Part shown: piece by piece, positions 6,318-10,409 of the stretch
Position numbering within the stretch: position 1 is the first letter of the stretch
How the letters are laid out: each line of letters starts with the position of its first letter
From: a virus
Direction: 5' to 3' (one strand)
IMG/VR virus record: IMGVR_UViG_3300050033_000555
Location: 1-45,651 of that record
Length of the DNA: 45,651 nt
Notes under the pieces: model-generated
Told to the model about the DNA's origin: nothing
The model's input: only the letters and a program-made list of their open reading frames with translations
Database searches by the model: none
Program-made: the position numbers and the translations under genes

Positions 6318-6347
6318 TTGACAAAGTGTGCCGGAAGCTGATATTCT
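6318..6347 (+). promoter_or_regulatory. sigma70-type promoter of the acr-like operon
   Basis: TTGACA (6318-6323), 18-bp spacer, TATTCT (6342-6347). On the other strand TTGTCA with a 17-bp spacer and TATTTT gives a divergent promoter for the HTH gene, so the two promoters overlap and could be mutually exclusive. Confidence 0.65.
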
Positions 6348-6364: not shown

Positions 6365-6405
6365 CCGGGACACCCGGCCAGAAGCACCCCGCGGCCATCG
6401 GCCGC
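6365..6405 (+). other. two leader hairpins before gene 6422
   Basis: CCGGG-ACA-CCCGG (6365-6377) and GCGGCC-ATC-GGCCGC (6391-6405) lie between the promoter and the ribosome site AAAAAGGAG. They may stabilise the 5' end of the transcript or modulate initiation. Confidence 0.5.
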
Positions 6406-6421
6406 AAAAAGGAGTCACACA

Positions 6422-6688
6422 GTGACCAATAATTCGACGATTACCCCCACCATTCGCCGCGCGATCCTGCGCTCGGCAAACCAGCCCCAAGCCAACATCC
6501 ACATCGAGGTTATCCCCGGCATCGCGCTCGCACCGCGCACGGCCGGCGAGTCCTACTACTGGACGACCCCGAGCGGCAAGACCATCGTACGGCACCCCTC
6601 GGCCTATCGCTGGCCGACGTGGTACCACGCGAGCACCAGGCGCGTGCAGGTCGGAGCGGATTGGATCGCGCTCGCCTGTGCCGCATAG
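6422..6688 (+). CDS. hypothetical protein, 88 aa, upstream of ribozyme
   Basis: GTG start with AAAGGAG 9 bases upstream. MTNNSTITPTIRRAILRSAN at the N-terminus, later ESYYWTTPSGKTIVRHPSAY and a tryptophan-rich end. No family recognised. First gene of the operon; its TAG stop (6686-6688) lies in the 5' strand region of the hammerhead stem I, so ribosomes finishing this gene must unfold the ribozyme. Confidence 0.65.
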   Translation: MTNNSTITPTIRRAILRSANQPQANIHIEVIPGIALAPRTAGESYYWTTPSGKTIVRHPSAYRWPTWYHASTRRVQVGADWIALACAA

Positions 6689-6743
6689 CCCCTGACGAGT
6701 CCCCCTGGGCCGGGGACGAAACGCCGTGAGGCGTCGGGCACAG
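6676..6743 (+). ncRNA. hammerhead ribozyme, type I
   Basis: All core parts are present in the right order. CTGACGAG (6692-6699) matches CUGANGAG; stem II GTCCCC/GGGGAC (6699-6704 / 6712-6717) closes a 7-base loop; GAAA is 6718-6721; stem III ACGCC/GGCGT (6721-6725 / 6730-6734) has a GTGA tetraloop; the H17 residue is C6735. Stem I is GCCC/GGGC (6688-6691 / 6736-6739), extended by CTGT/ACAG (6676-6679 / 6740-6743) across an 8-base bulge that could dock with loop II. Predicted cleavage is after 6735. Stem I is the open stem, hence type I. It sits between gene 6422 and gene 6761, 26 bases before the latter's ATG. Confidence 0.9.
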
Positions 6744-6760
6744 CCCAAAGGAGCAACACC

Positions 6761-7861
6761 ATGCAAGCAACGATCACTTATCTGCTCACCGAGCAGGCAC
6801 AGAGAGCGCAGATGGCGGCCACTGGCCAGCCGGTAGCGCGCAAACAATCCATTAGTGTAGAGGTGCCCACTGAGGACCTCGCGCTCATGCAGGTCACCGA
6901 CGACGGCATGCCGTACCTCAACCTCTGCCCCGCTGCCACGCGGAAGGAAGACGCGCAAGTCATCAACGTGACCGTCCCGCAGTACAAAGCGCTTCTGGCG
7001 GCTGGCTGCGAGGAAGGCCGGCAGTGGTACAAGGGAGCCTCGGGGAGCCATTACGGCTTGGATATCCCCCTGATCCCGGATGCACAAGCCGACATCCTGG
7101 CGCTGGTCAAGAGCGGCATCTCGAAATTGGCCGCGGCGGAACAGGCCAAGGTGGATAAGACCGATGCCGCGATCCGGGAATTCCTGGCGTCGGACAAGCC
7201 GGTCACCTCCGAGTATGATCGCCGCCACGTCGCCTATACCGACATCAGCGACCGGACGGATGATATGGCGACAGCTTATGTCGCCGAAGCGTCGCGCCGC
7301 TTCGCGGAGTTTCTGGCGGCCGAAAAAGAGAAGAGCGCGATCTATGCCCGGAAGTGCGCCGAAGAGAAAGCGCGCAAGGACGCGGCTGACGCTGCTCTGG
7401 AGCAAGCCAAGACCGACGCCATCGCCGCATTCGTCGCCGCCTCCGGTGACGCGCTACTCCAGCAGCAGTACGCCGAGGATCTCCTCTGCCGCAAGACCGT
7501 CATCAGCCGCATGGCCAACGCCGCGCTGGATGCCGCCGGGCTGCCGGCGGAGTGCCCGGATTCCGTGGTCTGCCAGGATAACGATTGCCCGTGCGGTGAC
7601 TCTGGCGTCGATTGCATCCCGCCCGCCGTATACGCGCGATGGAAGCACATGCAGGCCCCTCCGGACCCGGAAGTAAATCTCCCTAACCCACGTCTGATGT
7701 TGCCGGATGGGTCCACCGTCGAATTCCGCAAGGTTCTCAATTGCACGCGGGATGAGGATGGGGTCATGGATCCCGAAGACCAACCCGGCCCGACCGAGTA
7801 CCACGCGCTGGTGACGATCCCCTCAGGGCCGTTCCAGTTTACCCGGCGGATCAAGGTCTGA
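6761..7861 (+). CDS. hypothetical protein, 366 aa
   Basis: ATG after AAAGGAG, 25 bases downstream of the hammerhead cleavage site. Residues about 110-235 are a long charged helix/coiled coil (AAAEQAKVDKTDAAIREFLA ... KARKDAADAALEQAKTDAIA). A cysteine cluster follows at about 268-287 (CPDSVVCQDNDCPCGDSGVD), which could bind metal. The C-terminus is beta-rich (PDGSTVEFRKVLNCTRDEDG). No family recognised. Its position between the ribozyme and an AcrVA2-like gene makes an early host-takeover or anti-defence role possible, without direct proof. Confidence 0.65.
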   Translation: MQATITYLLTEQAQRAQMAATGQPVARKQSISVEVPTEDLALMQVTDDGMPYLNLCPAATRKEDAQVINVTVPQYKALLAAGCEEGRQWYKGASGSHYGLDIPLIPDAQADILALVKSGISKLAAAEQAKVDKTDAAIREFLASDKPVTSEYDRRHVAYTDISDRTDDMATAYVAEASRRFAEFLAAEKEKSAIYARKCAEEKARKDAADAALEQAKTDAIAAFVAASGDALLQQQYAEDLLCRKTVISRMANAALDAAGLPAECPDSVVCQDNDCPCGDSGVDCIPPAVYARWKHMQAPPDPEVNLPNPRLMLPDGSTVEFRKVLNCTRDEDGVMDPEDQPGPTEYHALVTIPSGPFQFTRRIKV

Positions 7862-7863
7862 TT

Positions 7864-8022
7864 ATGCGGCGGTCCTACTTCTTCTGGTACTTCGCATTTC
7901 GGCTTGCGCTCATCGTGGAGGCGCAAGCCGTCCGGCTGCGCGATCTGGCGCAACGGCGCAAGATGGCGTGCGTCCCCCAGGTGCCCGGCTTCTGGAGCGA
8001 TTGGGAAGGCGGTGGATGGTGA
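7864..8022 (+). CDS. small protein, 52 aa, possible membrane anchor
   Basis: MRRSYFFWYFAFRLALIVEA starts 2 bases after the preceding stop and reads to a TGA overlapping the next ATG. The first 20 residues are hydrophobic and aromatic after an RR, like a membrane anchor or signal. Function unknown; translational coupling on both sides supports it. Confidence 0.5.
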   Translation: MRRSYFFWYFAFRLALIVEAQAVRLRDLAQRRKMACVPQVPGFWSDWEGGGW

Positions 8023-9230
8023 AGCGCCACGGCTGCATTGATTGCAAACTGATGGAGCCGATAGCCGGGCAGTGGATCGGAGGCCTCTGCCCGGCCTGCA
8101 CGAAGATGCGCGCGGAGCGGAAAGCGCTCCAGGCGGGGCCGGTCGCACCCGAGGTGCCCAAGCCGCCCAAACGGGACGAAACCGCCGAGCGACTTTGCCG
8201 GATGGTCGCCGATTATTCTAGGGTGTCTCCGAACACCTGGCGCGCACTGGATGCGATGCGGCGGAATCGTATCAGCGATTGGCCGTCCTGGTGCTTTCTT
8301 CCCGTGTCGGTGCTGGGCGCCTACATGCAGGTTCAGCAAAGCGCCACGGGAGCCGTCCCGAGGCTCACCCCACTCAGCCCTTCCCTCGCCGGCCACGTCC
8401 ACGGGCTTGCACTTTTCGGCGCATGGCGGACGACGCAGGGCATCTACCGTTATGACCCGACCATTTTTGAGGCGCTGTGGGAGACGCCAATCGACGGCCA
8501 ACTCCCGGTGGAAGCGTTGCACCAGATTCCGGAGTGGTGCGTATACATTGAGACGCCGGCCCGCAGGCTTTCATCGACGGGCGAGCCTATCGACGGATTT
8601 TTCGCGCATCTGGATTACGTCAACAAGGGCGAGCATCATTTGCGCCTGGGCCTGGATATCGCAGGATCCGCGCTGAAAATCATCCCCCTGACCTTGCGCG
8701 GGTCGCTCCCAGAGGCGCTTGCCGACATGGAGGCGGATTATCGCGCCTATCGGGAAAAGTACTCGCCCATCAACGAGGAGACGGACCGCATCGCCCACGA
8801 GATGCAATATGGCGCGGCCGATCTCGCCCCGCTCATCAGCCTGGTCCTCTACCTCTGCTCGACCAACGCCGAGATGTGCCAGCGGGACACCGGACGCTTG
8901 CGGCCCTCGAAGCCGACGCTGACGAAGACCAAGGACGGCATGCGGATGTTCCCGGCCGAGAAGCCCGCGGCGTGGGATGTCGGCTTCCGCCTGGGCGCCG
9001 CTATCCGCCATGCCCGCGAACAGGAGCAGAGGAAACCAGGCGACGGCACTCATGCCAGTCCGCGGGCCCATATCCGGCGCGCGCACTGGCATTCGTTCTG
9101 GACTGGCCCGAAGGCCAAGGTGGGGATGCTGGCGCCGGATCGCAAACTGGTGCTGAAGTGGTTGCCGCCGATGGCGGTCAATGTGGAGGATGAATTGGAA
9201 ACCGTGCCGACGATCCACCCGGTGCAATAG
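8016..9230 (+). CDS. AcrVA2-like anti-CRISPR family protein
   Basis: 404 aa from ATG 8016 (GGAAGGCGGTGG before it). A zinc knuckle C7-x2-C10 ... C25-x2-C28 opens the protein. The body matches what is remembered of the Moraxella AcrVA2 sequence: LFGAWRTTQGIYRYD at about 133-147, IPEWCVYIETP near 170, then HIRRAHWHSFWTGP near 360 and KLVLKWLPPMAVN near 385. AcrVA2 (322 aa) lowers Cas12a levels by acting on its nascent chain and mRNA. Homologues occur widely, including where Cas12a is absent, so the target here is open. The N-terminal zinc knuckle is an addition. Operon partners: hammerhead-headed gene 6761 and the Dam-type methylase. Confidence 0.8.
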   Translation: MVKRHGCIDCKLMEPIAGQWIGGLCPACTKMRAERKALQAGPVAPEVPKPPKRDETAERLCRMVADYSRVSPNTWRALDAMRRNRISDWPSWCFLPVSVLGAYMQVQQSATGAVPRLTPLSPSLAGHVHGLALFGAWRTTQGIYRYDPTIFEALWETPIDGQLPVEALHQIPEWCVYIETPARRLSSTGEPIDGFFAHLDYVNKGEHHLRLGLDIAGSALKIIPLTLRGSLPEALADMEADYRAYREKYSPINEETDRIAHEMQYGAADLAPLISLVLYLCSTNAEMCQRDTGRLRPSKPTLTKTKDGMRMFPAEKPAAWDVGFRLGAAIRHAREQEQRKPGDGTHASPRAHIRRAHWHSFWTGPKAKVGMLAPDRKLVLKWLPPMAVNVEDELETVPTIHPVQ

Positions 9231-9239
9231 CAGGGCGGC

Positions 9240-10409
9240 GTGAGCGGTGTGCGGGAACCTGCCTACTTGACATCAGCGGCGTTTTCGCCGATTCTGGATC
9301 CCATGGGCTATCCAGGTGGAAAATCCGGACCGGGGGTCTATCACCGGCTGATCAATCTTATGCCGCCGCATCCGGTTTACTGCGAACCGTTCCTCGGCGG
9401 GGGTGCGGTAATGCGGCTAAAGCGGCCGGCGGCGTACAACATCGGCGTGGACCTGGATGCGGAGGTAATCGCGTCGTGGCGATCGCATACGGGCGAAAAC
9501 GCCGTCAAGGACCTGAGCGGCGAAAGCGCCGGGGCTCGAGGAACGGCGGAAAAGCCGGGGGGAGCAGCTTGGCGCGACCTGGTGGGCGCGGCAGGTTTGC
9601 CGCTGTATCCGGGAGCGGTTGGTCCGCCGTCAGTTCCAGGAAGCGGTGCCCATCACCAGGCGGCATATCCGCCGCTGAAGGCCTCCGGCGGTAGGTTCAC
9701 CGCTGGCCGATCAAGGACGGCTGCCGTCGGCGGCGCAATCGCCGCTCCGGTACCGGAGTACTCCGGCGGCAGTCTCGCCGATTGTGGATCCGCCGCTGGT
9801 CGATCGAGCTTTCGGTTCCTCCGCGGCGACGGCCTCACCTTCCTGGCGTCGTACCCGTTCCAGCCTACCGACCTAATCTATTGCGATCCACCCTACTTGA
9901 TGGAAACGCGTTCCGGTGGGCGACTCTACCGCCACGAAATGAGCGACGAGCAGCACGCGGAGTTGTTGGCCACCATTCTGGAATTGCCGTGCCGGGTGAT
10001 GATTTCGGGGTATTGGTCTGAGATGTACACCTTCAGGCTGAAACGGTGGAACTGCATCCACTTCGAGGCGATGACGCGGGGCGGGATGGCAACCGAATGG
10101 CTCTGGTTCAACTTTGCCGAACCCGTGGAGTTGCACGATTACCAATTTTTGGGCGAGAACACGCGCCAGCGCCAGGACCTCAAGCGGCAGATCGCAAGCT
10201 GGGCCGGAAAGCTCGAACGCATGCCGCCACTGAAGAAACGAGCGCTTCTCGCAGCGATCGCGGATGCCGGAGTTTCCAGGTGTGCGACAAACGGTAAGGA
10301 CCGCACCCCGCAACCGGCCAAACGTCAGGCTTTAACTGGCGCTCACTTTCGCGGTTTTTGCGGAGGGGTTTTACGCACACCCCCGAGCGCCTGCCGGATC
10401 GAGGACTGA
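9240..10409 (+). CDS. Dam-type DNA adenine methylase (D12 class)
   Basis: Motif X/I region YPGGKSGPGVYHRLINLMPP then YCEPFLGGGAVMRLKRPAAY (SAM binding), and catalytic motif IV DLIYCDPPYLMETR; C-terminal half includes GYWSEMYTFRLKRWNCIHFE. These define N6-adenine methylases of the Dam/MboIIA type. GTG 9240 gives 389 aa; ATG 9303 (MGYPGG) is the other choice. Residues about 80-195 are a long Gly/Pro/Ala-rich insert whose middle (9517-9678) looks more protein-like in another frame (see findings). Likely protects phage DNA from restriction or alters host regulation. Overlaps the converging recombinase by 67 bp. Confidence 0.85.
   Translation: MSGVREPAYLTSAAFSPILDPMGYPGGKSGPGVYHRLINLMPPHPVYCEPFLGGGAVMRLKRPAAYNIGVDLDAEVIASWRSHTGENAVKDLSGESAGARGTAEKPGGAAWRDLVGAAGLPLYPGAVGPPSVPGSGAHHQAAYPPLKASGGRFTAGRSRTAAVGGAIAAPVPEYSGGSLADCGSAAGRSSFRFLRGDGLTFLASYPFQPTDLIYCDPPYLMETRSGGRLYRHEMSDEQHAELLATILELPCRVMISGYWSEMYTFRLKRWNCIHFEAMTRGGMATEWLWFNFAEPVELHDYQFLGENTRQRQDLKRQIASWAGKLERMPPLKKRALLAAIADAGVSRCATNGKDRTPQPAKRQALTGAHFRGFCGGVLRTPPSACRIED

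Follow-up and report, generated by a model that had tools for sequence, protein, structure and literature searches.

The viral DNA analysed here, a stretch of 45,651 nucleotides referred to below as the window, contains at positions 6688-6739 all invariant bases of a type I hammerhead ribozyme, together with its three stems. The element lies between genes 6422 and 6761, where the first-pass annotation had placed it. This is probably a functional hammerhead in the leader of gene 6761, stabilised by a pseudoknot between loop II and the 3' tail, with a role in providing the gene with a compact and separate mRNA. The elements of the ribozyme and of the leader that follows it are listed below.

6688-6691, + strand: 5' strand of stem I, GCCC (read directly; invariant in the three relatives)
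6692-6698, + strand: catalytic core CUGACGA (CTGACGA in the DNA), C3 to A9 (letters, RF00163 match and independent covariance model)
6699-6717, + strand: stem II with loop II; GTCCCC (6699-6704) pairs with GGGGAC (6712-6717), 6 bp
6705-6711, + strand: loop II, CTGGGCC (read directly)
6706-6710, + strand: loop II arm of the candidate pseudoknot, UGGGC; partner GCCCA at 6743-6747 (GGGC/GCCC invariant in the three relatives)
6718-6720, + strand: core GAA, G12 A13 A14 (letters, RF00163 match and independent covariance model)
6721-6734, + strand: stem III, 5 bp, ACGCC (6721-6725) with GGCGT (6730-6734), closed by a GUGA (GTGA) loop
6735, + strand: C17 (H17), with predicted cleavage 3' of C6735 (position in the hammerhead core)
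6736-6739, + strand: 3' strand of stem I, GGGC, the new 5' end after the cut (letters; relatives)
6736-6746, + strand: possible 5'-terminal hairpin of the downstream product, GGGC-ACA-GCCC (minimum-energy fold; arms invariant in the three relatives)
6747-6753, + strand: Shine-Dalgarno sequence AAAGGAG (letters; invariant in the three relatives)

Anatomy of the hammerhead

The core positions C3 U4 G5 A6 N7 G8 A9, G12 A13 A14 A15.1 and U16.1 H17 are unmutated (6692-6698, 6718-6721 and 6734-6735), and the pairs flanking the core are intact: N1.1-N2.1 is G6736-C6691, N10.1-N11.1 is G6699-C6717 and A15.1-U16.1 is A6721-U6734. Core bases and flanking pairs together satisfy the rules by which Perreault et al. 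2011 (PMC3088659) accepted hammerheads. Stems II and III are closed by loops and stem I is open, as in type I hammerheads. The minimum-free-energy structure of the isolated 58-nt core is exactly the hammerhead fold (-25.2 kcal/mol, 57% of the ensemble). The complete type I hammerhead claimed in the first-pass annotation is borne out by the letters, the core-only fold, shuffling and an independent covariance model, and its cleavage site at C17 is upheld as a predicted cut after C6735, given the place of this nucleotide in the core. The same annotation had set the upstream stop codon inside stem I; the overlap exists, and the TAG of gene 6422 (6686-6688) shares just one base with the stem.

Detection and chance resemblance

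A strict descriptor, demanding the core and at least 4 bp in every stem, finds one match in the window against one across 8,234 first-order Markov windows (752 Mb). The best Rfam family is RF00163 (Hammerhead_1), which matches 6689-6738 with 22.7 bits and an E value of 0.002 for 221 bases. Since this score does not reach the gathering score of 34, a default Rfam scan reports no hit in the window; the cmscan check proposed in the first-pass annotation recovers the expected family, below the gathering level. The cut-off of 34 bits is a reporting threshold and not a biological definition. Pattern scans for canonical cores in viral contigs returned at least 119 stretches with one pattern and at least 120 with a second. 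A gathering-level cmscan of 13 of those contigs, which hold dozens of canonical hammerheads in 120 kb, reported none, and none of the 14 phage records scanned with RF00163 reached 34 bits. Every phage leader hammerhead tested in the viral contigs is missed at this cut-off. The Rfam miss of the window hammerhead is not meaningful, since the cut-off also overlooks dozens of canonical phage hammerheads.

We therefore built a covariance model of our own, trained on 37 phage hammerheads with the window and its relatives excluded. The first-pass annotation had staked its claim on a covariance-model hit, and the independent model gives the window 61.2 bits (E 8.8e-18). Neither this model nor an earlier scan finds a second hammerhead in the window. 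Pair counts from the 37-sequence alignment were set aside as proof because the sequences had been picked for having the stems. Shuffled folding energies for the whole region are unremarkable. A chance resemblance to the hammerhead, in favour of which stands the score below the Rfam gathering cut-off, has next to no probability: it is already refuted by the shuffling control, by the E value of the independent model and by conservation of the element in two further phages.

Conservation among related phages

An 83.9-kb viral contig contains, without any difference, the first 12 kb of the window. Five more distant homologues of gene 6761 occur in other viral contigs (L003, L128, L126, L129 and L130). 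The ribozyme heads the homologue in L003 and L128, with 55.1 and 55.5 bits under the 37-sequence model; a scan with the same model finds no ribozyme in front of the homologues in L126, L129 and L130. In the three-way alignment of the window, L003 and L128, the core except the free position N7, stem I, the GGGC of loop II, the tail GCCC and AAAGGAG are all invariant. Stem II differs by one compensatory double change of C-G to G-C and by one U-G pair, and stem III is longer in L003 and L128 and of other sequence, with its pairing kept. The changes in stems II and III between phages thus maintain pairing, as expected of a structured RNA. Sliding the stem partners lowers the pairing from 100% to 30-47%; the shuffling control on the alignment, with three sequences only, is not significant (161/500).

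In a DNA comparison with the L128 phage, similarity runs from 6688, where stem I begins, to 6879 within gene 6761. The 40 bases before 6688 are unrelated to L128 (30% identity), and the upstream gene of that phage is unrelated to gene 6422. Homology thus sets in with the first base of stem I, so that the ribozyme and the gene start move as a block; the ribozyme goes together with the start of gene 6761 rather than with gene 6422.

Genes around the ribozyme

The ribozyme is surrounded by the following features.

6318-6347, + strand: sigma-70-like promoter, TTGACA-18-TATTCT, second hexamer preceded by TG (assigned by consensus alone, with 10 of 12 bases agreeing)
6422-6688, + strand: upstream gene 6422, 88 aa, stop TAG at 6686-6688 (homologues in L003, L126 and L130)
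6761-7861, + strand: downstream gene 6761, 366 aa, conserved N-terminus MQATITYLLTEQAQRAQMAATGQPVARKQ (homologue alignment)
7968-9230, + strand: AcrVA2-like protein, PHROG 6160, second gene after the ribozyme (PDB 7ci1, AcrVA2, E 2e-16)
9240-10409, + strand: D12-class adenine DNA methyltransferase (family matches)

The transcript carrying the ribozyme probably starts at the promoter, which lies upstream of gene 6422. Gene 6422 has no family match. Its leader holds a perfect GCGGCC-ATC-GGCCGC hairpin (6389-6417) abutting AAAAAGGAG, and its homologues in L126 and L130 have different hairpins at roughly the same place; a rule of hairpins before Shine-Dalgarno sequences was inspected by eye across the genes of the window and is anecdotal only. 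In L003 (3000-3250) a small deletion frameshifts the homologue of gene 6422, and the DNA is well conserved as far as the ribozyme.

In the family of gene 6761 the first 29 residues are almost invariant and the C-terminus is conserved, with a highly variable part between them. Pfam, PHROGs, PADLOC and PDB offer no family match for gene 6761, and no relatives of it were found in a collection of 84,980 bacterial and archaeal species or in 50,697 named phage records. The AcrVA2-like protein behind it has an extra N-terminal part and homologues in named phages of many hosts. Together with the methyltransferase it makes the region behind gene 6761 look like a counter-defence region, a setting which recalls the hammerhead reported before the anti-restriction gene ardA (PMC3088659). 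AcrVA2 is reported to trigger decay of Cas12a mRNA (PMC13131331), which implies no link to the ribozyme. The first-pass annotation had the ribozyme heading an AcrVA2-like operon. The downstream AcrVA2-like gene is real, and the link to the ribozyme fails in the relatives: the gene was not found in the 14.5 kb (L003) and 13.5 kb (L128) fetched around the ribozyme, and in L129 it follows the gene 6761 homologue without one. We therefore rejected a tie between the ribozyme and acr genes, or a role as leader of an acr (AcrVA2) operon, for want of a consistent association in these three phages. The gene directly behind the ribozyme, 6761, is of a different family from AcrVA2.

Stem I, a candidate loop II pseudoknot and an alternative pairing

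An outer extension of stem I around a bulge that could dock with loop II had been proposed. The pairing of CTGT (6676-6679) with ACAG (6740-6743) exists in the letters, gains only about 0.4 kcal/mol and is found in neither relative: in L003 the two segments read CTGC and AAAG, and L128 has no counterpart. The outer helix was accordingly rejected as a tertiary dock. A putative pseudoknot between UGGGC of loop II and GCCCA of the tail fits better and is the likely stabiliser. Its arms are identical in the window, L003 and L128, so that this set of orthologues, without covariation, says nothing for or against the contact. Support comes from the wider class of phage hammerheads with a stem I of 4-5 bp and a long stem II, in which 18 of 35 have loop II/tail helices of at least 4 bp, where swapping predicts 7.4 and at most yielded 13. 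A second set shows a weaker excess (8/25 against 4.3 expected, largest 11). The arms vary widely across the class (UGGGC, UUGGCU, UGACU, CGCGGC, GACGCA and others), which argues for the contact. Pseudoknots between stems I and II have been described in about 40% of hammerheads, and in a type II example the reaction rate depended critically on one (PMC3088659).

The window, unlike its relatives, also allows a 7-bp helix between CUGUGCC (6676-6682) and GGCACAG (6737-6743). This helix would break stem I, and by computation it beats the hammerhead fold by about 5 kcal/mol when tertiary contacts are disregarded (-30.1 against -25.2); it could slow or gate cutting. The first-pass annotation had suggested that translating ribosomes gate the folding. 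In its full form, this idea has the alternative helix blocking the cut unless ribosomes finishing gene 6422 cover 6676-6682, so that cutting would depend on translation of the upstream gene. Such gating is possible to the extent that the helix beats stem I in isolation and has its 5' arm in the last codons of gene 6422, and we hold it to be quite improbable: it depends on a pairing that is absent from L003 and L128, and a ribosome on the stop codon would cover stem I too. The computed minimum-energy fold of L003 also differs from the hammerhead. These alternative folds of the window and L003, and the fact that activity of the ribozyme is only predicted, might be taken as signs of an inactive relic whose core is retained through recent descent. 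Such a relic is very improbable, given that core and pairing are held while stem III and the loop lengths vary among the phages, and that the sequence upstream of the L128 ribozyme has already diverged to 30% identity.

The leader after the predicted cleavage

The predicted 3' product, GGGCACAGCCC, folds as a hairpin beside AAAGGAG (fold of 6736-6775). This agrees with the earlier proposal that the new 5' end refolds as a small hairpin ahead of the Shine-Dalgarno sequence, and the arms are retained in all three relatives. The tail GCCC would pair with loop II before the cut and with the freed GGGC of stem I after it. A re-pairing hairpin is plausible at the window ribozyme. Across a first set of phage hammerheads, 50 of 119 have a re-pairing hairpin within 20 nt against 17 by swapping, among the matches listed and with a bias in part of the set, for which some loci had been retrieved through a GGGC-loop pattern. 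An independent second set gives 24 of 98 against 20-22 expected, and the hairpin was rejected as a general law of phage hammerheads. A trend appears in the class with a stem I of 4-5 bp, a split that was chosen post hoc (23/50 against 8.2, then 6/26 against 2.7).

Position of hammerheads in phage genomes

Among the matches listed, 127 of 210 deduplicated phage type I hammerheads are followed, no more than 75 nt past the cut, by the start of a frame of at least 40 codons with a Shine-Dalgarno sequence. For random positions on these strands the figure is 14%, and on the antisense side only 6 of the hammerheads show such an arrangement. The distance from cut to start has a median of 30 nt, with quartiles of 26 and 41, among the matches listed; the window ribozyme, 25 nt from gene 6761, is typical. 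When the Shine-Dalgarno condition is dropped, an ATG with a frame lies within 60 nt in 169 of 210 cases, among the matches listed, against 28%.

Some contigs contain rows of 4-8 leader hammerheads, in which several small genes in succession each have one in front: eight in L100, seven each in L018, L054, L165 and L204, and four in L192 and L015. Some of the row-bearing contigs supplied training sequences of the covariance model. Perreault et al. already saw multiple hammerheads flanking phage genes, so the idea of processing is not new; it had been proposed, and what is added here is the quantification of the leader position.

Proposed role

Anatomy and conservation of the window ribozyme are observations; from them we infer cutting, message stability and the role of the hairpin as follows. 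Transcription would probably start before gene 6422 and read through the ribozyme, and the nascent RNA would fold and, to judge by the intact core, cut itself after C6735. The message of gene 6422 would then end in a 2',3'-cyclic phosphate, and the downstream message would begin with a 5'-OH and a leader of 25 nt. The GGGC freed from stem I would re-pair with GCCC into a small 5' hairpin directly before AAAGGAG. The most likely purpose would be to give gene 6761 and the following genes a compact mRNA of their own, apart from gene 6422, that resists decay and leaves the ribosome site open. Phage hammerheads have been proposed to divide long transcripts into mRNAs of operon or gene length, and cleavage in vivo has been demonstrated for some of them (PMC3088659). 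RNA with a 5'-hydroxyl is cut poorly by RNase E via its 5' sensor, and a 5'-OH made by a hammerhead is seemingly not phosphorylated efficiently in E. coli (PMC4191395, the latter citing unpublished data); the likely benefit would therefore be a stable, separately translated message. Against this explanation stand the three homologues of gene 6761 that manage without a ribozyme (L126, L129 and L130), the more stable alternative pairing of the window, the computed fold of L003, the invariance of the pseudoknot arms in the close relatives and the failure of the re-pairing hairpin as a general law.

Any cut separates genes 6422 and 6761, and hammerheads are reported to flank genes on either side (PMC3088659). 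Cleavage might thus serve to end or release the message of gene 6422, or to uncouple both genes, with the shape of the leader incidental. We consider this unlikely, as the conserved block comprises the ribozyme and the start of gene 6761 and not gene 6422, the upstream gene in L128 is unrelated, and phage hammerheads keep a narrow distance before gene starts (median 30 nt, among the matches listed). We prefer the role in the leader of gene 6761, and tentatively extend it in a joint proposal that is possible rather than likely: in the subgroup with a short stem I the tail would be the partner of loop II before the cut and of the freed stem I strand after it, and phages would widely use leader hammerheads, often in arrays that put one ahead of every small gene, as a built-in maturation of mRNA 5' ends. 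If true, the double use of the tail would make cutting irreversible, and the hairpin would cap the mRNA beside the ribosome site.

Comparison with known systems

What hammerheads do in bacteria and phages has been an open question from 2011 on, and according to a 2023 paper it is still unknown why they are associated with phage genes (PMC10085705). Among the matches listed, most phage type I hammerheads are found about 30 nt before a gene start, with 4-8 in a row in several phages. This placement and these rows, hidden by the Rfam cut-off, make the mRNA-leader hypothesis directly testable through mapping of 5'-OH ends.

Polycistronic phage mRNA is also cut near gene starts by RNases, as at the RNase III sites of T7 and by RegB of T4; these are host or phage protein enzymes, whereas the window RNA would cut itself. 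The Theta (HDV-like) ribozymes of gut phages are likewise self-cleaving phage RNAs, of an unrelated fold, and are described as tied to tRNAs and recoding and not to mRNA leaders (PMC10879173). The closest likeness is to the pseudoknotted type I hammerheads of bacteria and prophages (PMC3088659), which share the core, the order of stems, the intergenic place in phages and a proposed function in mRNA processing, whose pseudoknot the candidate contact between loop II and tail would match, and one of which lies just upstream of ardA. Unlike in those hammerheads, the tail in the window can also pair with the freed strand of stem I and form a 5' hairpin beside the Shine-Dalgarno sequence; the gene family and the phage are new as well. 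As do the other phage leader hammerheads tested, the window scores below the gathering score of RF00163 (34), and it looks like a member of a known set, the pseudoknotted type I hammerheads of phages, that the standard Rfam library overlooks.
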